Positions 11,147 through 28,436 of a DNA stretch of 28,827 bases are shown piece by piece (position 1 is the first letter of the stretch; each line of letters starts with the position of its first letter). Source of the DNA: a virus; the IMG/VR virus record IMGVR_UViG_3300009311_000017, positions 1 to 28,827 of that record; one strand, given 5' to 3'. Under the pieces are notes generated by a model. The model did not search any database. It was not told the origin of the DNA and saw only the letters and a list, made by a program, of their open reading frames with translations. A program made the translations under genes and the position numbers.

Positions 11147-11668
11147 TCACTTGTCTATACAGCATTTTTTATATTTCTTTCCGGAACCACAAAAGCAAGG
11201 TTCATTCCGGCCAGGTTTATTCTCAGGAGCCACTTTCCTATCTATGCAAAGTATGCCGTCCATATGATCTACTTCATGCTGGATTATAACGGACTCAAGG
11301 CCGGCCACGGTGTAATCAAGGTGTGTCCCTGCCCCCCAGTCCCGGATCAGAAGCCCATTATACCGCACCGTAGTAAGCCGCGTGTCTGGAATACTCAAGC
11401 ACCCTTCGTTCGGGACATGAACCGCGCCGGACTTGTGCATTATGGACGTATTTATAAGAAGCGTCTCGGTGTCTTTGAACCTATACCACGCCGCGCGAAT
11501 GGGTATTCCGATTTGTATAGCGGCCAAGCCATAGCCATGTGTCCAGGCGGTGTCGATGACCGCTTTAGCGCGGTTTACAAAGTCAAGATCCTGGACTTCT
11601 TCAAGCGAAGTCTTCCGGGATTTTTGACGTAGGAAGTCAATGTCTGTTATGATTTTGTCCGATGTCAT
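11147..11668 (-). CDS. def: Peptide deformylase with C-terminal SEC-C motif
   Basis: The 173-aa enzyme removes the formyl group from N-terminal Met. All three deformylase motifs are present: motif 1 GYGLAAIQIG (45-54), motif 2 EGCLS (zinc ligand C90) and motif 3 QHEVDH (H131, catalytic E132, H135). After the catalytic domain a linker leads to PGRNEPCFCGSGKKYKKCC, a SEC-C zinc motif best known from the SecA tail. Deformylases occur in several phages and are thought to speed maturation of phage-directed proteins; a SEC-C tail on one is uncommon in my knowledge and might tether the enzyme to the ribosome or a partner. It has its own promoter. Confidence 0.95.
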   Translation of the reverse strand: MTSDKIITDIDFLRQKSRKTSLEEVQDLDFVNRAKAVIDTAWTHGYGLAAIQIGIPIRAAWYRFKDTETLLINTSIMHKSGAVHVPNEGCLSIPDTRLTTVRYNGLLIRDWGAGTHLDYTVAGLESVIIQHEVDHMDGILCIDRKVAPENKPGRNEPCFCGSGKKYKKCCIDK

Positions 11669-15120: not shown

Positions 15121-15515
15121 AATCGGAAGATCGCGGGCCGCAGATTGTCAAGCCTCCCGGTGCCACAGTGCCAATGCCGGTAGGGAAGGAGTCTGACATA
15201 ACGCAAATGGCAGAAAGCTGTCTTGAAGCTGTAGCCCGCGATAAATACGACGGTAAAATAGAAAAATATAAAGGCAAAACCCGCCTCGAAGTGGCTGTCT
15301 TGAGCCTGGCAGAAGACGCGGCGTGGGATCAGAAGTCCCGTACCGAGTTCCTTGACCGCATTCTGGGCAAGCCCAAACAACGGATCGACTCCCAAAACCT
15401 CAATATCACGTTGACTGGCTTTCTTCAGACCCTCGCCGAAGAAGATGAGCCAGAAGAAGCCCAGGTTATTGACATCACCCTGGAGCCGGATGGCGATGAA
15501 AGGATGTTCTCATGA
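15117..15515 (+). CDS. Putative terminase small subunit-like protein, 132 aa
   Basis: This protein lies directly upstream of the large terminase with stop-start overlaps (ATGA) on both sides. After an unstructured N-terminus it has a helical part, including MAESCLEAVARDKYDGKIEK, TRLEVAVLSLAEDAAWDQKS and FLDRILGKPKQRIDSQNLNI. The LDRILGKPKQ element occurs in many small phage proteins encoded before terminase large subunits. The C-terminus is acidic. Assignment as the DNA-recognising small subunit rests on position and this motif. Confidence 0.55.
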   Translation: MKSEDRGPQIVKPPGATVPMPVGKESDITQMAESCLEAVARDKYDGKIEKYKGKTRLEVAVLSLAEDAAWDQKSRTEFLDRILGKPKQRIDSQNLNITLTGFLQTLAEEDEPEEAQVIDITLEPDGDERMFS

Positions 15516-17137
15516 CAGAAAATGCACAGATGGCTGAAAAAGAACTCCGCGTCCTTCGGAAACTGCGTAATGATTTCACCTATTACGCGCCTAAGTGCCT
15601 TAAAATACAGGACAAAGAGACTGGCCAGATCATGCCCTTTGTCATGAATCGGGCCCAACAGTACATCCACGCGAAACTTGAAGAACAGAAAGCTAGACTC
15701 GGGTTTGTGCGCGCAGTTATAGTGAAAGGTCGGCAGCAAGGGTGTTCCACCTACACGGCGGGGAGATATTTTCACCAAGCCACGCTTCACTCGGGGGTAA
15801 GCGTCTTTATACTCGCGCACATATCCGACTCGACGAATCACCTTTTCGGGATGGCCAAGCGCTATTACGAGAACGCCCCGGCTCCGATACTCCCCACCAT
15901 CGAGAAGATGAATGAGCGTAGGCTCGAGTTTAAGAGCATCAATTCAAGCTATGGTGTGGGAACGGCCGGGAGCGCGCAAATAGGGCGCGGAACGACAATA
16001 AGATATTTTCATGGGTCTGAAGTTGCGTACTGGGAGCATTCCGGGGATATAGCGGCTGGAGTCCTCCAGGCCGTTCCCCGGGCGGCGAATACGGAGATCA
16101 TCCTCGAATCGACGGCAAATGGTTCCGGTAACTGGTTTCATAAGATGGCGATGGAAGGGCTGAACGCAGATTCGGCCGGAGACTTTATTACTATATTTGT
16201 GCCCTGGTATTGGCAGCCGGAATACTACCGCGAGCCTCCGGCCGGGTTTATAATAACCCCGGAAGAGGAAGAGATCATGATGCTGTATGGTCTGAACCTC
16301 GGGCAGATATGCTGGAGGCGGGGGATGATAGCAGATGCGTTCAGTGGGCAAGAATGGCGCTTTCGCCGGGAATATCCCAATACGATCGAAGAGGCTTTCT
16401 CAGCTTCCGGCGAGCGATTGATCCCGGTAGACCAGGTTATAGCCGCCAGGAAGAGCCAGATAAAAGACCCAAATGCTTATATTGTAGGGGGTTGTGATCC
16501 GGCCAGGAAAGGGGACCGGACGGTGCGGGCCATCCGGCGCGGGCGGGAACTTCTTAAAGTCTTTAAGCATAACAACATGGATGAAATGACCTGCGCCGGC
16601 CTTATAGCCAATGATATCGATAAATACCAGTGCTCGAAATATTTTGTCGATGTTGGCTGTGGGTACGGCACCGTAGACCGTTTAAAAGAAATGGGTTATG
16701 GCGATGTTGTGATGGGGGTGCATTTTGGGGCCGCGGCGCTTCAAGACGATATATTTATTAATAAGCGGGCTGAGATGGCCGATGCGGTGCGTGAGTGGTT
16801 CAATGATGGTAATTGTAGTATTCCTGATGATGACGAGATCCAGATAGATCTCGGGTCCATACCGCCGTTGAAGGAGATCGGGTCCAGGCACCGTCAGGGG
16901 CTTCCGCCGAAACAAGAGATCAAAGACACCCTCGGCCGGAGTCCTGATATTTTTGACGCTATCGGGCTGACCTTTGCTTATCCCATAGCCAGGAATATCC
17001 GGAAGAAGAAAGTTCGGCGAGCAGAAACAGATGTTTCCCGGCGCAATAGCCCGCTTTCAACCGTACAAGATTTTAACCGCCGCGGGGGCGGGTCGGGTAA
17101 ATCCCGGACTTTTAACCAGAACATAAAAATACGGTAA
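15512..17137 (+). CDS. terL: Terminase large subunit
   Basis: The 541-aa packaging motor has the ATPase centre VKGRQQGCSTY (about 71-81), with the lysine at the early position as in terminases with K-x-RQ-x-G-x-ST P-loops, the Walker B IILEST (196-201) followed by ANG coupling motif, and GTTIRYFHGSEVAYW. The nuclease half has GGCDPARKGDRT (D329), YFVDVGCGYGTVDRL and SPDIFDAIGLTFAYP, the three acidic positions of the RNase H-like fold. It cuts concatemeric DNA and drives it into the capsid through the portal encoded downstream. The N-terminus overlaps the preceding gene; a Ser/Arg/Gly-rich tail follows the nuclease. Confidence 0.97.
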   Translation: MTENAQMAEKELRVLRKLRNDFTYYAPKCLKIQDKETGQIMPFVMNRAQQYIHAKLEEQKARLGFVRAVIVKGRQQGCSTYTAGRYFHQATLHSGVSVFILAHISDSTNHLFGMAKRYYENAPAPILPTIEKMNERRLEFKSINSSYGVGTAGSAQIGRGTTIRYFHGSEVAYWEHSGDIAAGVLQAVPRAANTEIILESTANGSGNWFHKMAMEGLNADSAGDFITIFVPWYWQPEYYREPPAGFIITPEEEEIMMLYGLNLGQICWRRGMIADAFSGQEWRFRREYPNTIEEAFSASGERLIPVDQVIAARKSQIKDPNAYIVGGCDPARKGDRTVRAIRRGRELLKVFKHNNMDEMTCAGLIANDIDKYQCSKYFVDVGCGYGTVDRLKEMGYGDVVMGVHFGAAALQDDIFINKRAEMADAVREWFNDGNCSIPDDDEIQIDLGSIPPLKEIGSRHRQGLPPKQEIKDTLGRSPDIFDAIGLTFAYPIARNIRKKKVRRAETDVSRRNSPLSTVQDFNRRGGGSGKSRTFNQNIKIR

Positions 17138-17216: not shown

Positions 17217-17642
17217 TTGATGGAAGAGCGCGACATAGCCGAGGCGATAGCCCTGGTTCAAGAATTTCATGTTGAAGCTTTGGAAGTAATTGGTATTTAT
17301 CCAGACAAAGAGAAGCTTCAGCAAATGGCACGGGTTTTCATGTCCACATCGTTTGTTGTGGTGGCCGATGGAAAAGTTGTCGGAACACTTGTAGGATTTA
17401 TTACAGAATATGTCGGCGGGACTCAAGCATTGTACCAGGAAGTTATGTGGTTTATGAATAAACGATATCGCAAATACGGTATTCAACTACTTCGGAAAGT
17501 TGAAGAATGGTGTGTAGAGAATGGTATATTTGCGATAATGATGGTGGGACTTGGTAGCGCGGAAGGCCGGCTGCATGATTTTTTTTTGCGATGCGGGTAC
17601 AAGACGCTTGAAACACAATACATGAAAACTTTGGGGGTGTGA
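17217..17642 (+). CDS. GNAT-family N-acetyltransferase
   Basis: The protein has the GNAT layout: EERDIAEAIALVQEFHVEAL at the start, FVVVADGKVVGTLVGFI (strands 2-4), the acetyl-CoA loop region MNKRYRKYGIQLLRKVEEWC, and the final DFFLRCGYKTLETQYMK. The target is unknown. The annotated start is a TTG (an ATG follows), but the only ribosome site, AGGAGG at 17186-17191, is spaced for codon 17199, an in-frame ATC that would give the family-typical N-terminus xAIEIRLMEERD. Acetyltransferases are recurrent additions near terminase and portal genes of podoviruses. A promoter-like site lies just upstream. Confidence 0.88.
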   Translation: MMEERDIAEAIALVQEFHVEALEVIGIYPDKEKLQQMARVFMSTSFVVVADGKVVGTLVGFITEYVGGTQALYQEVMWFMNKRYRKYGIQLLRKVEEWCVENGIFAIMMVGLGSAEGRLHDFFLRCGYKTLETQYMKTLGV

Positions 17643-17643
17643 T

Positions 17644-17937
17644 ATGGGTGCGATCTCAGGTTCTACCGCGGCATTAATTGGTATGATGGCTATTTCGACC
17701 GCAGCATCTACCGGAACGGCGTTATATACTGGTGGACAGCAAGCTAAACAAGCGCGAGGCGCCAGAGAACAAGCTGCGCGGCTGGCCGCAGAGCAACGAA
17801 AGAGAGTGGGTGAACTTACAGCAGGTGAAGCGAGAGTAAGTGCCTCAAAGCGGGCGTTCCGCCAGGGGCTATTTTTGACCTCTCCTACAGGAGCAATCGG
17901 CGGTAGGCGTGGGCGGTCCAGGCTTCTCGCGGGGTAG
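17644..17937 (+). CDS. Small virion core-like protein, 97 aa
   Basis: It begins MGAISGSTAALIGMMAISTA, a small-residue hydrophobic stretch, and continues with ASTGTALYTGGQQAKQARGA and a basic helical part (AAEQRKRVGELTAGEARVSA) ending in a Gly/Arg-rich tail. This layout of a Gly/Ala/Met hydrophobic start, then an Ala/Arg-rich helix, also occurs in the internal virion protein at 28454. It may be a short paralogue or a membrane-active ejection protein. The start has no gap from the GNAT gene (TGATATG). No family assigned with certainty. Confidence 0.6.
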   Translation: MGAISGSTAALIGMMAISTAASTGTALYTGGQQAKQARGAREQAARLAAEQRKRVGELTAGEARVSASKRAFRQGLFLTSPTGAIGGRRGRSRLLAG

Positions 17938-17966: not shown

Positions 17967-18578
17967 ATGAGAAAAGGACTTTCACTTATTTTGGCATGTG
18001 TATTGGCATTTGCTTTTGCCGCTGGGGCATTTGCGAGTGACAACGATCTCGCGTATCTGGGGTTCGGTGAACTCGAGAGTATGACCGTTACCGCCAGTGG
18101 CGATAAAGTTCCCGTGTATGATTCATCCACGGATGATGTGAAAGCGATGGATGCGAATAACCCGGCGATCGCTGGAGATCAGACTTTTCGAACGAGTCTA
18201 TTGGCGATGGGTCGGGTAAATGCTGCCTCTTCGGCTGCATCTTCTTCAACGAATCTTGCACCGTCAACTCTTCCGTATGTGGTATTGCGTAAATACATCG
18301 GCGGAAATAGCGGACTTGATGAGACTGACGGCGGGACAAGACTTCCGAATGGCATCCCGGGACAGGTTCTTGTACTTATAGCGATGGATGTCGATACGAA
18401 CGGTAGCTGGATAGTGACCCCGGTAACGTCATTGACTGTCACGACGTTGACATTTGACGCCGCGGGAGAAACTACGACGCTTCTGTATGTGGATGACACT
18501 ATCGGTTGGACGATTATAGCGAACCTCGGAACCACGGTTGTATTTGAGAGACAGACGGGTATACCGAGCAAGCCGTAA
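17967..18578 (+). CDS. Exported protein of unknown function, 203 aa
   Basis: The protein begins with a clear Sec signal peptide (MRKGLSLILACVLAFAFAAG, probable cut after AFA). The mature part starts SDNDLAYLGFGELESMTVTA and is rich in Thr, Val, Asp and Ser. It includes a beta-rich C-terminal half (TSLTVTTLTFDAAGETTTLL followed by YVDDTIGWTIIANLGTTVVF) that looks like repeats found in surface or fibre proteins. Genuine virion proteins do not normally carry Sec signals, so this one is probably sent to the periplasm or surface of the infected host. It has an AGGAGGACAG site and lies immediately before the O-antigen polymerase-like gene, suggesting joint action. Family not recognised. Confidence 0.75.
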   Translation: MRKGLSLILACVLAFAFAAGAFASDNDLAYLGFGELESMTVTASGDKVPVYDSSTDDVKAMDANNPAIAGDQTFRTSLLAMGRVNAASSAASSSTNLAPSTLPYVVLRKYIGGNSGLDETDGGTRLPNGIPGQVLVLIAMDVDTNGSWIVTPVTSLTVTTLTFDAAGETTTLLYVDDTIGWTIIANLGTTVVFERQTGIPSKP

Positions 18579-18580
18579 TT

Positions 18581-19696
18581 ATGAGAAAAGCAATATCTTA
18601 TGTCCTCGGTTTTGCGGTGGGGTTACTGGCGGTAGCCCCACCGCTTAACTACAATATCCCGGTAGTCATTAATAGTTACGCATGGCTATACGGATTTATT
18701 GTTGCAGCGTTGTTGGGGACTTATCTCTTTTCAGTAAAGTTCCCGCTGGCACTTAAGATATTGCTTGCGTATTTGTTTATGGGGTGCTTTCTCAGTATGG
18801 CGCCCTATTTATCGTTTAACGCGTATATTCTTGTTATAGTCGCGGCCTGGGCGTTTTTGGGATTCGCGACGGGAGAAGAAGAACCGGTACTTAATGTGGT
18901 GGCCGCGGCTTTTTGGGTACAAGTAGTGATGACAGCGGCGCAGTTGATGGGGGCGGATAAGCTTATGAATTTCGATCGGCCGGAACCCGTATTCCTGGGA
19001 ACAGTAATGCAGTATATGAGATTCAGTTCTCTGCTGGCCATAATGACTCCCCTTCTTATTTTGAAGAATCGACTTTATATTATCCCCGTATTAATTCTGT
19101 GTATTCTTTCTCGATCTTCGAGTTTTGCTTTAGCGGTTATTGCCGGGGCGACGGCTTATCTCTTTATGACGATGAAGAAAGAGCGGTTCCTGATTAGTAT
19201 ATTTGCTGTCTTAGCCCTGGCATCTTATTATTTATGGGATGCAGGATCTTTTAAAACGGCATTTACCTGCGGTCGAGTACATGTGTGGGGGGATATAGTC
19301 CGGACCTGGGTTATGGACACTTCTCACAATTTTACGCTTCCTTTGAGGGGGCCGATGGATTGGAAAAGTATTTTTCTTGGCCGGGGGATGGACACGTTTA
19401 TGCCGCTATTTCCTGTTTTTAAACATGACATGAACCCTTTTGCCCAGGCACATAACTGCCATTTGCAACTTTTGTGGGAACTGGGGATTTTAGGATATAG
19501 CATTATCGCGGCGTATGCGGGGCGTCTTATGTGGCGTTTACGTTCCCGGCCGCTTTATATAGCAGGACTTGTATGTATGATGATAAATATGTTTTTTGCG
19601 TTTCCTACAAGAATGACCCAGACTATGTTTATGATGATTGCATTTATGGGCATCTGTGAAAAAGAGGCGCGTCGCATAGATTGGGAGGGGGTATAA
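18581..19696 (+). CDS. O-antigen polymerase/ligase homologue (Wzy_C superfamily), membrane protein
   Basis: The 371-aa protein has about ten hydrophobic helices. Its last third has the pattern of the Wzy/WaaL family: CGRVHVWGDIVRTW, then WKSIFLGRGMDTFMPLFPVF and AQAHNCHLQLLWELGILGYS, i.e. the R..W ... GRG.DTF ... AHN..L..L.ElGi.G signature of the large periplasmic loop followed by a helix. In Wzy/WaaL enzymes the Arg and His of this loop are needed to join undecaprenol-linked sugars. Sequence alone cannot separate polymerase from ligase. Phages such as D3 carry a wzy used to alter host O-antigen; here the gene sits within the virion operon between an exported protein and the portal. Confidence 0.85.
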   Translation: MRKAISYVLGFAVGLLAVAPPLNYNIPVVINSYAWLYGFIVAALLGTYLFSVKFPLALKILLAYLFMGCFLSMAPYLSFNAYILVIVAAWAFLGFATGEEEPVLNVVAAAFWVQVVMTAAQLMGADKLMNFDRPEPVFLGTVMQYMRFSSLLAIMTPLLILKNRLYIIPVLILCILSRSSSFALAVIAGATAYLFMTMKKERFLISIFAVLALASYYLWDAGSFKTAFTCGRVHVWGDIVRTWVMDTSHNFTLPLRGPMDWKSIFLGRGMDTFMPLFPVFKHDMNPFAQAHNCHLQLLWELGILGYSIIAAYAGRLMWRLRSRPLYIAGLVCMMINMFFAFPTRMTQTMFMMIAFMGICEKEARRIDWEGV

Positions 19697-19697
19697 G

Positions 19698-21407
19698 ATG
19701 TCAGCCAAGATAGAATATTTAATAGAGAAACGTAAGGTAATGCTTACCCAGAAAGATTCTTGGCTCCGGCAATACCAGATTTTAGGGAAATATATTTATT
19801 CTAAAAAACAGCAATTTCAGATTGAGCGTGAGGATGGAGCTTTTCTTAATGACGGCATGATTAATGATTCGACGGCCGTACGCGCAAATTCAGCTATGGC
19901 TTCGGCTATAATGGGATCTCTCTGGAAAAGTGGGAATCGTACATTTCGAGTCCGCCGATCGAAAAATATTCCGGATACCAAAATAAATAATGAATATTAT
20001 AGAGAAATAAATCAGCAGATCGCTGATGCTATGGAAGCTCCGAAAGCCGGATTTGAGACAGCTTTTCATGAAGAGATCAGCGAAGAGGGAGCTTTTGGTA
20101 CAGGATGTATAGCTCTTTTTCAAGGAGATTATGAAAATCCGCTCAATTTTAAAAGCTGGAGTATTCAAAAACTTGCTATTGAGGAAGGGCCGGACGGATA
20201 TGTTGATACAGTTTATTATGATGAGAAAATAACGATTGCGGCTTTGGCTGAACGGTATGGTAAAAATAAACTTCCCGAAGATCTCCAGAAAAAAGTTGAT
20301 AGTCAAAAAGGCCGTATTGAAAAAGTAATATTGACCGTGGCTATAGAGCCGCGACCGATAGGAGAACGTAAAGGGGTGGGGGTATTTGGTACGCCTATAG
20401 CCTCATATCATTTTTTACATAAAGATAAAGCTATATTATTAGAGAGCGGATTTGTCAGTCTTCCGGCCCGGGTGGGCCGCTGGTATAAATTAGCCAGTGA
20501 AACATATGGGCGGTCCCCGGGAATGGATGCGCTTCCGGCCATAATGCAAATAAACGCGCTTAAAGAATCTTTTCTTATTGGGGTTGAAAAGAAAGTTGAG
20601 CCGCCTCTCTTTATATTAGATGATGGGTCTTTAGGGGCCGGGGTTGTCGATACTTCCGCCCGGGGGCTTTCAGTATTTAACAGTATGGGCCGCACGAATA
20701 CTCAGAATCCTGTTGGTACTATTTTTGATATAGGAGAGCTTAACAGTGTAGCCGCGGCGATAACAGAGACGCGGGAAGAGATATTACAGCATTTTCTTAT
20801 TGATAGACTTTACGATCTCAATAATAAAACCCGGATGACTCTTGGTGAAGCCGAGATGCGGTACCAGATTCGAAGTGATGCGCTTTCGTCTATATATGCG
20901 AGATATACCGCAGAAATTCTGAATCCGCTTATAGACCGGGCATTTAGTATAATGTTTGAGATGGGTCTTTTAGGTATAACTGAAGAGAATTTTGCCCAAG
21001 AAGCTGTTCTTATCGCGAATGGAATAGATCCTATACAGATACCGCCGGATGTGGCCGAGGCGATTGTAGCTAACAAACGCATTTACGAAATTGATTACAT
21101 TTCCCCTGCGGCTAATGTCATGCGCGAAGAAGAATATCGCGGAATAATTGCCACAACGAATAACGCGATTCAGCTCGCAGGAGCTGGTGCAGATACAATG
21201 ACGAAACTCGACACAGATCGTATAATTGAACATTCTGCCAGATTATCCGGTGCGCCTATGGATATTGTTGTGGCGGATGATGTTGTTAAGGACATAAGAG
21301 ACACCAGACAAGAACAACAGGAAGCATTGGTCCAGGCGGAGCTCACGGCTCAGATGGCCAAAGCCGGAAAAGACGCAGCGCAAGGCCAAGCTGCTCTTGT
21401 CCAGTAA
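19698..21407 (+). CDS. Portal protein (head-to-tail connector, podovirus type)
   Basis: The 569-aa protein matches the Head-tail_con family of T7-like portals: N-terminal KDSWLRQYQILGKYIYSKKQ, FLNDGMINDSTAVRANSAMA with SAIMGSLWKSGNRTF, a middle YGRSPGMDALPAIMQINALK, NKTRMTLGEAEMRYQIRSDA and the C-terminal LNPLIDRAFSIMFEMGLLG. It forms the dodecameric ring through which the terminase pumps DNA, and joins head to tail. A Gln/Ala-rich tail ends the protein. It follows a GGAGGGGGT site at the end of the polymerase gene. Confidence 0.94.
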   Translation: MSAKIEYLIEKRKVMLTQKDSWLRQYQILGKYIYSKKQQFQIEREDGAFLNDGMINDSTAVRANSAMASAIMGSLWKSGNRTFRVRRSKNIPDTKINNEYYREINQQIADAMEAPKAGFETAFHEEISEEGAFGTGCIALFQGDYENPLNFKSWSIQKLAIEEGPDGYVDTVYYDEKITIAALAERYGKNKLPEDLQKKVDSQKGRIEKVILTVAIEPRPIGERKGVGVFGTPIASYHFLHKDKAILLESGFVSLPARVGRWYKLASETYGRSPGMDALPAIMQINALKESFLIGVEKKVEPPLFILDDGSLGAGVVDTSARGLSVFNSMGRTNTQNPVGTIFDIGELNSVAAAITETREEILQHFLIDRLYDLNNKTRMTLGEAEMRYQIRSDALSSIYARYTAEILNPLIDRAFSIMFEMGLLGITEENFAQEAVLIANGIDPIQIPPDVAEAIVANKRIYEIDYISPAANVMREEEYRGIIATTNNAIQLAGAGADTMTKLDTDRIIEHSARLSGAPMDIVVADDVVKDIRDTRQEQQEALVQAELTAQMAKAGKDAAQGQAALVQ

Positions 21408-22820: not shown

Positions 22821-23705
22821 ATGGCTGTTGACACTGCTTTAATCACCCAGTTCAGTAATCTGCTGCACGTTAAGGCCCAGCAGATGACTACGAGACTTAT
22901 GGGCCGCTGCCAGATCATACCGATCACGGGCGAAAATTTCGCTTATGACGGTACGGGCATGGTAGAAGCTCGCACGAATAACTCTCGTAACCCCTTGATC
23001 GACCCGCAGGACCCGGAATACACCCGTAGGAAACTCACTACGGATAGGATTCTGGTAGAGCTTATCGTGGACAACCGCGATGCTCGGCGTATGTTTGAAG
23101 ACCCGTCTTCCAAGCTGGTCAACGAATGTATGTTTGCGATCATGAGAAAAGCCGATAAGATCGGTATAACGGCCGCTACGGCATCTGTATATACCGGGAA
23201 AAGTTTCGGAACGACTGTGGCTTTCGCGACGGATGGAGGCCAGACAGTGGATGCTACGGGCGGCCTGACATACGCGAAACTTCTGGAGATAAAGGACAAT
23301 TTCAAGAAGTATGAAGTTGGCCTGGAAATGCCGGAAGATCTTCTGTTTCTCACCACGGAAGAGGAAGAAACGAAGATGCTTCAGCTCACGCAGCTTACGA
23401 GCGGCGATTTTGTCCGTGACTATGCTGTAGAGAAAGGAAAGATCGTCCGTGCTGTTGGCTTGGATGTGATCCTTTTCGGTAGTGGCGTGGATAACCCGCA
23501 ACTTTCGGTTGCCAGCGGAACCCGCGATAATATCGCAATGTCCACAAAAGGACTCATTTACGGCATGAGTAAAGAGTTCAACGTGCATGTGCAGGAGAAT
23601 CACCCGAGCTATGTAGAATCTACATATATTCGCGTGATGGCAGATCTCGGCGCGGTGCGTACCGATGGGCAGAGGGTCCAGAAGGTCCAGACTACGGATG
23701 CGTAA
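22821..23705 (+). CDS. Major capsid protein
   Basis: The 294-aa protein starts MAVDTALITQFSNLLHVKAQ and contains DPQDPEYTRRKLTTDRILVE, MFEDPSSKLVNECMFAIMRK and ENHPSYVESTYIRVMADLGA, as in the family of ~300-aa capsid proteins of podoviruses with HK97-like folds. Position after the scaffold, a dedicated promoter, a strong GGAGG site and a terminator just downstream all fit the most abundant virion protein. Its codons look more GC-ending (CTC, AAG, ATC, GCC) than those of the AT-rich portal and scaffold genes before it. Confidence 0.92.
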   Translation: MAVDTALITQFSNLLHVKAQQMTTRLMGRCQIIPITGENFAYDGTGMVEARTNNSRNPLIDPQDPEYTRRKLTTDRILVELIVDNRDARRMFEDPSSKLVNECMFAIMRKADKIGITAATASVYTGKSFGTTVAFATDGGQTVDATGGLTYAKLLEIKDNFKKYEVGLEMPEDLLFLTTEEEETKMLQLTQLTSGDFVRDYAVEKGKIVRAVGLDVILFGSGVDNPQLSVASGTRDNIAMSTKGLIYGMSKEFNVHVQENHPSYVESTYIRVMADLGAVRTDGQRVQKVQTTDA

Positions 23706-25265: not shown

Positions 25266-28200
25266 ATGGAAGTTAATGCTTCATTAATCAATTTTGCGGC
25301 GGGTCAATTATCGAAGAAATTTTTAGCTCGAATAGATCTTCCTAATTTTTATAGAGCGGGAACTCTTCTTTGCCGTAATTTTGTTCCACAAGCGCAGGGT
25401 CCAGTAGAATTTCGTTCCGGATCAAAATATGTTCTTCATACTCGATTGAATAAAGAAGCGGCGCTCTATCCTTTTATTTTTAATGATGAACAGGCTTATG
25501 CGCTTGCTTTTTCTGATCAGAAATTAAGATTTTTTTCTGATGGGGGTGTGGTATTGGCCAGTGCTGGTACTACTCAATTTCAATTCCTTTCCCATTTTGA
25601 TGGCGTGGATGGAGCTACTTCTTACACTGCTGAATCCGGTCAGTCACTTTCTTTTCAGGGGGACGCACAGCTTGATACGGCACAGAAAGCTTTTGGAGTT
25701 TCCTCTCTTTTATTGGATGGTTCGGGAGATTGGGTTAATATTAGTGATTCTACGCTGTTAGATTTAAGTACTGATGATTTTACAATAGACACGCGGGTTC
25801 GATTTTCGGGAACTCCGGGTAATGATACGATATTAGGTAGTTCTTCGAGTGGATTTTTAATTTATGTATCGAATGCTACAACGATAACAGTTTATCGTGA
25901 TTGGGGGACTCCTATATCTTTCACTGTTTCAACTATGAGTGCCGCCACTTGGTATCATTTAGCCGTTGTACGCGAAGGTAATTTTATTAGATTATTTTTA
26001 GATGGAGTACAGCAAGATACGGATAAAGACATAACCGGCTGGAATATAACAGCCGCGGGAACACCCCAGATAGGAACATATGCGGGCAACAATCCTTTTG
26101 CTGGTTGGATAGATGAATTTGCTATTCGTAAGGGAGTGGCTATTTGGACTTCTAATTTTACACCGCCTACCGCTGCGTACCCGGCCACTAATCTCAATGC
26201 TATTACGGGCATAACTCAAGCAGATCCAGGAGTTTTAACTGTGCCCTCACACGGGTATTCTGGCGGAGAAGAAGTTTATTTAAGCGAAATCGAAGGGATG
26301 ACAGAACTTAATAATAAATATTATCTTGTTGTCTATATTGACGCGGATACTTTTTCTCTTACTGATGTAGATGGTACGGCCATAGATACTACTGCGTATA
26401 CCGCATATACTACTGGGGGAGCTACTGATGCTGTTTATGAGATAGACACCCCGTATGAAGAGGCGGATATTTATGATCTTAAATTTGCCCAAAAAGCAGA
26501 TCTTATGTATATAGTACACCCGAATTATGAGCCGCGTAAGCTTACTCGATCTGGAGACGCAGATTGGGCGTTAGATACTTTTATTCGTACGGATGATCCT
26601 TTTACTAAGACGATTTCCGGGATTACAAAAGCGAATCCCGGCGTAGTAACTTGTACGGCGCATGGTTTTTCAAACGGAGATATTGTAGAAATAAATGGTG
26701 TTGTAGGTATGACCGAGGTAAATGAGCAGTTATTTAAAGTTGCCAACAAAGCCACAAATACTTTTGAACTTACTGATCCCACTACTGATGCAGATGTAGA
26801 TACTTCTGGGTATTCTACATACGCATCCGCGGGGGTAGCATTTAAAGAGGGAAATATGCCGGGAGCGGTGGCTTTTTATGGGGGCCGTCTTTTTTATGGA
26901 GGAACGGATGATGATCCGGAAACTTTTTTTGGTAGCAAAGCTCCGGATAATGATGGTACGACGAATTATGATGTATTTACTGTAGGATCAAGTGCGGAAG
27001 ATGCGGTTATTTTTCCGATATCTTCTCAAAATAATGTTGCAGACAGGATTCAATGGTTTGCCGGAACGAGTCGATTTTTAGGTATTGGTACTTTTGGTGG
27101 AGTTTATAAAGCTCATGGGGGTTCTGACGCTGATCCGATAAGCGGAACAGCCGTAGAGGTTCGAGCGGTAGAATTTTTAGGTTGTAAATATATAGCTCCA
27201 GCCCGAATAGGAAATTCTCTTTTTTATGTCCAGCGCGGAGGTCAGATATTAAATAGGTTTGGATTTTCTCTTTTAGCAGATGATTATGCTGCGGAAAATC
27301 TTAATATATTTTCAGATGAAATAACTTCCCCCGGGCTTAAACAACTTGCGGTACAACAGGGACGAGCGGATATTATATGGGCTGTCACGACAGGCGGTAA
27401 ACTTATAGGCGTTACAATTAAGATCGGAGAAGAAATAAATGCGTGGCATAGCCATACAATAAGTGGAACAGATATACAAATTTTGTCTGTTTGTGGGGAA
27501 CCACAGCCAGATAATATGGACAGTTTATGGTTAATAGCTGAACGAACGATTAACGGAGTGACGCGCCGGTATGTCGAATATTTTGAAGCAGAGGCTTTAT
27601 TACCTGAGCCCGAAGAATATTATACCGGAACGCAAAGTGATGATGAAGATAAATACCGGAATCTTCTTTATGAAGCACAAAAACACCTTGTTCGTTTAGA
27701 TAGTTCTTTGAGTTTAAATACCCAACAAGCAGCTCCGGTTACTCCTGGAGCGACCACGGGAACTGGAATAGCTTTCACATCTACTGAAGAAATTTTTTCT
27801 GCTTCAGATGTAGGTAAAAAAATTGTTAAGAAATTCGTAACTGGAGAAGAAGCGGGTATTGCCACCATCACTGCGTATGTATCTACAACGGAAGTCACTT
27901 GTACTATCAATACTGATTTTGATTCAACAGATGAAATAGAAAGTGATAAATGGTTTTTGGCTGTCAATTCAGTTTCGGGACTTGAACATTTAGAAGGTGA
28001 AACTGTAGCCGCTCAAGTAGACGGATCAGATGATGGTACATTTACTGTTACTGATGGCGCGGTCACGCTAAATAATTATGGTACTGTTATACATGTGGGA
28101 CTTGAATATACCGGCAGGATCCAAACTATGCCGCTCGATATAGGAGCTCTCGCTGGTACTGCTCAGTCGCGCATAATGACAGTGAATCGCCTCGGACTTT

Positions 28201-28436
28201 TATTTCGCCACGCACGGGGTACTAAATACGGATCTGAACTCTATCGGCTCGAAGAATTAAAAGACCGGGATCTCGGGGCTATTACCGGACGTCCGGCGCA
28301 GCTTATAACGGAAGCGAAATTTCTTGAACTGGCAAGTAATTATGAGCGCCGGCAATATATCTACATTGTCCAGGATACTCCTGCGCCTTGTACGGTTCAG
28401 GGAATTGTACCGTTTGTAGATACGACAAATGAATAG
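25266..28436 (+). CDS. Tail tubular protein B (T7 gp12-like) with LamG-like and two FCCH-like modules
   Basis: The 1056-aa protein is the tail nozzle homologue, larger than T7 gp12. The backbone starts EVNASLINFAAGQLSKKFLA with DLPNFYRAGTLLCRNFVPQA and resumes at YEIDTPYEEADIYDLKFAQK with LMYIVHPNYEPRKLTR, segments that lie close together in simpler homologues. Between them are a LamG/jelly-roll domain (about 105-305: LLLDGSGDWVNIS, ATWYHLAVVREGNFIRLFLD, GWIDEFAIRKGVAIW) and a first FCCH-like module (312-385). A second module lies at 449-523. The LamG domain could bind surface glycans. The C-terminal half carries the beta-propeller-like body and a collar region. Confidence 0.88.
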   Translation: MEVNASLINFAAGQLSKKFLARIDLPNFYRAGTLLCRNFVPQAQGPVEFRSGSKYVLHTRLNKEAALYPFIFNDEQAYALAFSDQKLRFFSDGGVVLASAGTTQFQFLSHFDGVDGATSYTAESGQSLSFQGDAQLDTAQKAFGVSSLLLDGSGDWVNISDSTLLDLSTDDFTIDTRVRFSGTPGNDTILGSSSSGFLIYVSNATTITVYRDWGTPISFTVSTMSAATWYHLAVVREGNFIRLFLDGVQQDTDKDITGWNITAAGTPQIGTYAGNNPFAGWIDEFAIRKGVAIWTSNFTPPTAAYPATNLNAITGITQADPGVLTVPSHGYSGGEEVYLSEIEGMTELNNKYYLVVYIDADTFSLTDVDGTAIDTTAYTAYTTGGATDAVYEIDTPYEEADIYDLKFAQKADLMYIVHPNYEPRKLTRSGDADWALDTFIRTDDPFTKTISGITKANPGVVTCTAHGFSNGDIVEINGVVGMTEVNEQLFKVANKATNTFELTDPTTDADVDTSGYSTYASAGVAFKEGNMPGAVAFYGGRLFYGGTDDDPETFFGSKAPDNDGTTNYDVFTVGSSAEDAVIFPISSQNNVADRIQWFAGTSRFLGIGTFGGVYKAHGGSDADPISGTAVEVRAVEFLGCKYIAPARIGNSLFYVQRGGQILNRFGFSLLADDYAAENLNIFSDEITSPGLKQLAVQQGRADIIWAVTTGGKLIGVTIKIGEEINAWHSHTISGTDIQILSVCGEPQPDNMDSLWLIAERTINGVTRRYVEYFEAEALLPEPEEYYTGTQSDDEDKYRNLLYEAQKHLVRLDSSLSLNTQQAAPVTPGATTGTGIAFTSTEEIFSASDVGKKIVKKFVTGEEAGIATITAYVSTTEVTCTINTDFDSTDEIESDKWFLAVNSVSGLEHLEGETVAAQVDGSDDGTFTVTDGAVTLNNYGTVIHVGLEYTGRIQTMPLDIGALAGTAQSRIMTVNRLGLLFRHARGTKYGSELYRLEELKDRDLGAITGRPAQLITEAKFLELASNYERRQYIYIVQDTPAPCTVQGIVPFVDTTNE

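Follow-up and report, generated by a model that had tools for sequence, protein, structure and literature searches.

In the oligosaccharyltransferase (OTase) systems TfpO, TfpM and PglS, the gene for the substrate protein adjoins the gene for the enzyme, and the Wzy_C domain is common to OTases and WaaL (PMC12645811). The site modified by PglS is internal and rich in Ala, Ser and Thr (PMC12645811). In the phage VarioGold, p26, encoded beside the O-antigen ligase p25, bears an N-terminal signal peptide (PMC9658991). The pair of genes described here is found in an IMG/VR fragment of 28.8 kb, possibly incomplete, from a podovirus-type phage; this fragment is called the window throughout and constitutes the whole stretch of DNA analysed. 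As in D3-type Wzy and VarioGold p25/p26, a Wzy_C gene is carried by a phage; however, the D3-type and VarioGold genes reside in lysogeny or moron clusters, whereas the window pair, with its virion-type partner, lies in the late head/tail operon. As for TfpO/PilO and TfpM, a Wzy_C membrane enzyme devoid of the PglL_A and Wzy_C_2 domains is encoded directly downstream of an exported protein; in contrast to TfpO and TfpM, the phage partner is a virion-type Sec protein and not a pilin, and the cassette is located inside a phage structural operon. With PglL/PglS (9rmk) the viral enzymes share the HN..LQ...E.G motif and, in a pooled viral profile whose members are mostly 14-24% identical to the window enzyme, the best sequence match in the PDB (70.7 bits), but they mostly comprise about 370-410 aa compared with 610 aa, and a conserved Arg has given way, in most cases, to Ser. 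WaaL (7tpg) provides the best structural match (Z 18.7) and shares the HX10G motif, although the affinity of the pooled profile to WaaL (35.1 bits) is weaker than to the OTase, opposite to host Wzy_C controls. Equally, the mature parts of the largest family of exported partners are homologous to PF09956 cement and to gp82N (8keg), from which the cassette versions differ by a Sec signal peptide and the adjacent Wzy_C gene.

Replication genes (DNA polymerase A, primase/VapE, SNF2 helicase and C5 methylase) run leftward in the window and late genes rightward; an integrase was not seen among the proteins scanned of this possibly incomplete fragment. On the plus strand, in almost gapless succession, the terminase large subunit (15512-17137; phrog_2, E 6e-25) is followed by a GNAT acetyltransferase (17217-17642; PF00583, 28.9 bits versus a cut-off of 20.7), a small, 97-aa internal-virion-protein-like gene (17644-17937; phrog_418, a weak match with E 0.07, position kept in relatives), the exported partner, a virion-fibre-like protein of 203 aa and proposed glycan acceptor (17967-18578; identified by its ORF, Shine-Dalgarno sequence and pairing statistics), the Wzy_C/WaaL-fold membrane protein of 371 aa and proposed O-oligosaccharyltransferase (18581-19696; identified by fold, motif and profile matches), and the portal or head-tail connector (19698-21407; PF12236, E 6e-69), with the major capsid protein (22821-23705; PF19821, E 4e-28) and a tail protein with a LamG domain further downstream. 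The partner and enzyme ORFs are intact, co-directional and separated by 2 bp, with 1 bp remaining before the portal gene. A preliminary description of this DNA, which had placed a signal-peptide protein and a Wzy/WaaL-like membrane protein between terminase and portal, co-oriented with the late genes, is borne out in these points. Its suggestion that the LamG-bearing tail could be the matching glycan reader is not supported: the domain does exist (residues 151-287 of the tail protein encoded at 25266-28436; Laminin_G_3, E 1e-16), but nothing links it to the cassette. Portal searches of 395 genomes of one phylum for the host of the window phage returned distant portals only. A GNAT-type gene occupies the same position also in phages without the cassette, and in the cassette-free L032, L033, L037 and L039 genes similar to the GNAT acetyltransferase of this late operon adjoin terminase or portal. 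Furthermore, the window encodes a peptide deformylase carrying a SEC-C motif at 11147-11668.

The partner gene is preceded by a strong Shine-Dalgarno sequence, AGGAGG, and its product starts with a textbook Sec signal peptide, MRKGLSLILACVLAFAFAAGAFA, which spans residues 1-23 (17967-18035), displays n-, h- and c-regions and an A-x-A site with the predicted cut between AFA and the subsequent SD, and has counterparts in L012, L095, L097 and some 50 other partners. A fibre-type domain forms the mature N-terminus (about residues 24-75; 18036-18191), and its profile match to collagen-like fibres that lack a signal peptide constitutes the link of the window partner to virion proteins. An Ala/Ser/Thr-rich linker, NAASSAASSSTNLAPST (18219-18269), with an SSST stretch conserved among the window, L012 and L095 partners (alignment A6), is a conceivable region of O-glycosylation. 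The C-terminal beta-rich domain (18270-18566) is 49% identical to the corresponding part of the L095 partner and, according to a partial Mantel test, travels with the enzyme type. The AlphaFold model of the window partner reached a pLDDT of 49.5 and was left out of the fold search; neither the PDB nor 50,697 cultured phage records contained a match to its sequence. Since a profile comparison with the cement-type partners aligned the signal peptide only, window-type and cement-type partners are not treated as one family.

The window enzyme carries the stretch GRGMDTF and AHNCHLQLLWELG, the latter being the HX10G motif from H291 to G302 (19451-19486), the predicted catalytic loop; R232 (codon 19274-19276) is also present. 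Across 41 of 41 viral homologues R232, G267, G269, A290, H291, Q296, E300 and G302 are invariant. An AlphaFold model built from 41 viral relatives (pLDDT 87.7, pTM 0.87) displays a multi-helix GT-C-type fold with WaaL 7tpg_B as the best structure in the VIA comparison (Z 18.7, 299 residues aligned), and SEDS proteins as next matches (Z 9-11). Foldseek alone did not list WaaL for this model, the second look with VIA did, and the OTase 9rmk appeared in neither list; a BFVD search in the structural follow-up gave no significant match. With PF04932 the window enzyme alone scores 15.4 bits, under the curated cut-off of 31.7, which is a detection threshold and not a mechanistic feature, while the same-slot relatives L010 (41.8 bits) and L097 (37.0 bits), and equally L095 (35.3 bits), L099 and L100, pass. 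Comparison with the 87% relative L005 gives a dN/dS of 0.09, indicative of purifying selection on the enzyme gene. The confident model, the WaaL match, the invariant residues and this selection together make it a well-supported prediction that the window enzyme is a functional member of the WaaL/OTase fold.

Recurrence of the pair was addressed by searching IMG/VR (2.9 million viral contigs) at the DNA level for a degenerate version of the catalytic-loop motif AHNxYxQxxxExG, the neighbouring genes being disregarded. The scan retrieved 106 stretches, reduced to 84 non-redundant Wzy_C enzymes. A signal-peptide ORF, as called with a simple home-made script, is found directly upstream in 52 of the 68 evaluable non-redundant viral Wzy_C genes, and inspection of the 16 exceptions by eye revealed a signal-peptide partner in L110, L151 and L198 and a truncated partner in L010 and L171. 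As background, a signal-peptide gene precedes 43 of 378 other ORFs in the same loci (11%), 11 of 495 ORFs in portal-selected phage loci (2%) and 6 of 39 Wzy_C genes in host genomes (p 1e-9 versus viral). Of the six host cases, L294 and L299 represent the prophage cassette itself, and in L311 and L328 Wzy_C comes straight after a type IV pilin gene, a known layout of substrate and OTase. Since the pairing recurs in unrelated phages, the window pair stands far above chance, and the preliminary description was right to treat the two genes as a pair. The cassette is mostly preceded by the gene for the major head protein or the head protease and often followed by a tail tubular or head-tail adaptor gene. 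Metagenome-assembled bins also contain the cement-type partner, with the enzyme adjoining in three, assigned to Syntrophobacterales (L204), binned as Verrucomicrobiales (L205) and assigned to Desulfomicrobium (L206). A tblastn search with four representative enzymes against the 50,697 cultured phage records found no match, and the literature searched, which included few subscription papers, held no description of an exported virion-type protein together with Wzy_C in a late operon. The window pair exemplifies a phage cassette that recurs and has apparently not been described before, and the absence of this cassette from the cultured phages searched points to a gap in what cultured phages teach. 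Two further loci were recorded: in L118 (9259-9639, reverse-complement frame) a gene resembling a signal-peptide partner lies on the opposite strand, separated from the Wzy_C gene, possibly a split cassette, and in L027 (3306-4436) a Wzy_C-like gene (PF04932 15.8 bits, sub-threshold) is situated upstream of the terminase, with no signal-peptide partner noticed among the listed ORFs.

Relatives identified by their portal show what the slot between the late genes can hold. The same slot harbours a type-A enzyme with the window-type partner in L012 and L013 (L011 is truncated), and a type-B enzyme with a different partner in L097 and L188 (L010 and L009 are truncated). In the distant relatives L019, L023 and L024 (51-53% portal identity) the slot is filled by a collagen-like fibre without signal peptide and without enzyme, and a profile of the signal-peptide-bearing partners detects the N-termini of these fibres with E 2e-4 to 1e-2 among 13,845 ORFs. 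This sister clade thus lacks both the export signal and the enzyme but retains a related N-terminal module.

The exported partners belong to several unrelated groups. The largest consists of capsid cement furnished with a signal peptide, with PF09956 recognized in 8 of 51 partners (L120 above the cut-off), and the family profile matches the solved neck fibre gp82N (8keg) with E 6e-7; among the other partners, either an N-terminus of fibre type or a C-terminal domain recurs. This kinship with virion proteins is accompanied by a Ser/Thr content of 21%, compared with 14-16% in neighbouring genes. With the phage backbone and the N-terminal half of the partner controlled for, the partial Mantel test relates enzyme similarity to the C-terminal half (r 0.23, p 0.0005); the association with the N-terminal half falls short of significance (p 0.06). 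The clearest case is the window compared with L095, two different phage types with differing partner N-termini, in which the C-terminal halves are 49% and the enzymes 45% identical. Such co-variation, a correlation seen in sequences, would be expected if the acceptor domain were matched to the enzyme. A strict rule that the signal peptide occurs with Wzy was considered and rejected on account of 33 loci with a signal-peptide-bearing cement and no subsequent Wzy, often longer fusions. From these 33 loci it follows that export of cement-type proteins is broader than the cassette and has other uses.

The preference of the viral enzymes for the OTase is reversed in the host Wzy_C profile (WaaL 126.9 bits, OTase 73.0) and equally in the motif-matched host set A9 (WaaL 89.5 bits, OTase 40), and the latter control weakens the explanation that motif selection had caused the OTase affinity. 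The preference rests on the pooled profile, as the window enzyme is sub-threshold in Pfam and its subfamily alone has no sequence match in the PDB. Near residue 179 (LSxSR region), the viral set mostly has Ser in place of a second Arg that is invariant among the host enzymes (R253 of set A7) and also found in 9rmk. Among NCBIfam models, TfpM matches 2 of 41 viral enzymes weakly and the PEP O-ligase model also 2, the latter being matched more often by host Wzy_C genes; no PglL_A or Wzy_C_2 domain was matched in the viral enzymes scanned.

That the pair comprises a phage O-oligosaccharyltransferase and its own exported virion-type substrate, in other words a protein O-glycosylation cassette, is in our view the best explanation, although it is about as likely to be wrong as right. 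We infer catalysis, the identity of the acceptor, the glycan donor and virion loading along the following lines. The first gene would encode a fibre or decoration protein of virion type that has been fitted with a Sec signal peptide, so that late in infection the product would reach the periplasm. The second would encode a membrane O-oligosaccharyltransferase of the WaaL/PglL/TfpO superfamily, which would move a lipid-linked host glycan onto the partner, probably at its Ser/Thr-rich part. The partner might be anchored on the virion side through its N-terminal half and fitted to the enzyme through its C-terminal half. When the cell lyses, the glycoprotein in the periplasm would come into contact with the released particles or stay on the cell remains. 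The complete course of events, in which the phage exports its own decoration or fibre protein, its O-OTase adds host glycan in the periplasm and the product is mounted on particles at lysis, is proposed tentatively, with the balance of probability against it. Lipid or LPS may also be the acceptor.

The preliminary description had offered, as a possible reading, modification of the surface glycan that prevents re-adsorption or superinfection. Formulated for the pair, the enzyme would work on host LPS as an O-antigen ligase or polymerase, with a late surface change directed against trapping by debris or against other phages and the partner incidental or a helper. WaaL as the closest fold, the known serotype conversion by D3-type phage Wzy and the Wzy_C gene in a presumed lysogeny cluster of phage VarioGold (PMC9658991) speak for it. 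However, the exported virion-type protein beside most viral copies, the OTase-leaning profile and the co-variation with the C-terminal half of the partner are left unexplained, and exclusion at the surface is a function that one would expect early or during lysogeny and not from a position between major head and tail genes. Furthermore, the partners fall into virion-protein families and not among LPS-modifying factors of the Wzz, Iap or Oac-like kind, and an adjacent exported protein, the layout of substrate-specific O-OTases, is not needed for an O-antigen polymerase. Action on LPS is thus judged unlikely, and the surface-glycan/superinfection reading is outranked by that of protein glycosylation.

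The phage T5 protein Llp coats or blocks the host receptor from outside. In the same way, the exported fibre-like protein might coat or block a host receptor, and the role of the enzyme would be to glycosylate this protein or to attach it to surface glycan; a signal peptide, fibre-like mature domains and late expression, which would shield progeny from debris, agree with such masking. We consider it distinctly improbable, as many partners are homologues of capsid cement or neck fibres and not receptor-binding domains, and the sequence of the window partner displays no outer-membrane anchor and no convincing lipobox. That the genes are unrelated neighbours, a mobile two-gene moron retained for separate reasons with no relation of substrate and enzyme, is in line with the cassette residing in phages among which no other shared ORF was detected and with signal-peptide-bearing cement existing without Wzy, but is very improbable in the face of several distinct partner families in the same arrangement and an enzyme similarity that follows the partner C-terminal half beyond the backbone.

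If the protein O-glycosylation reading is true, tailed phages possess systems dedicated to glycosylating proteins in the periplasm, and proteins of phage structural families, usually assumed to be cytoplasmic until lysis, can be exported, with a bearing on avoidance of phage recognition, sticking to surfaces or avoidance of re-adsorption. A virus that may sugar-coat one of its own proteins by means of such a pair would be new. If periplasmic glycosylation and loading both occur, virion maturation would involve two compartments and tailed phages would obtain a host-derived glycan coat. As an application, many compact OTases with matched acceptors would become available for glycoengineering.

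Phage proteins of structural families seem to be exported more widely than in the cassette. Signal-peptide-bearing cement-like proteins, often fused to a fibre-like C-terminal domain, are encoded in Wzy-less phages (L207, L240, L242, L248, L249, L251, L253, L263 and others). In L096 (6918-14430), with a Mu-like gene order, several consecutive signal-peptide genes follow the capsid gene; one of their products, of 1056 aa, contains a B-repeat domain of InlB type (PF18998). Equally, large virion-like signal-peptide proteins are encoded downstream of the cassette in L107 (11705-13000), L115 (10232-11980, reverse-complement coordinates) and L113 (4988-6250).
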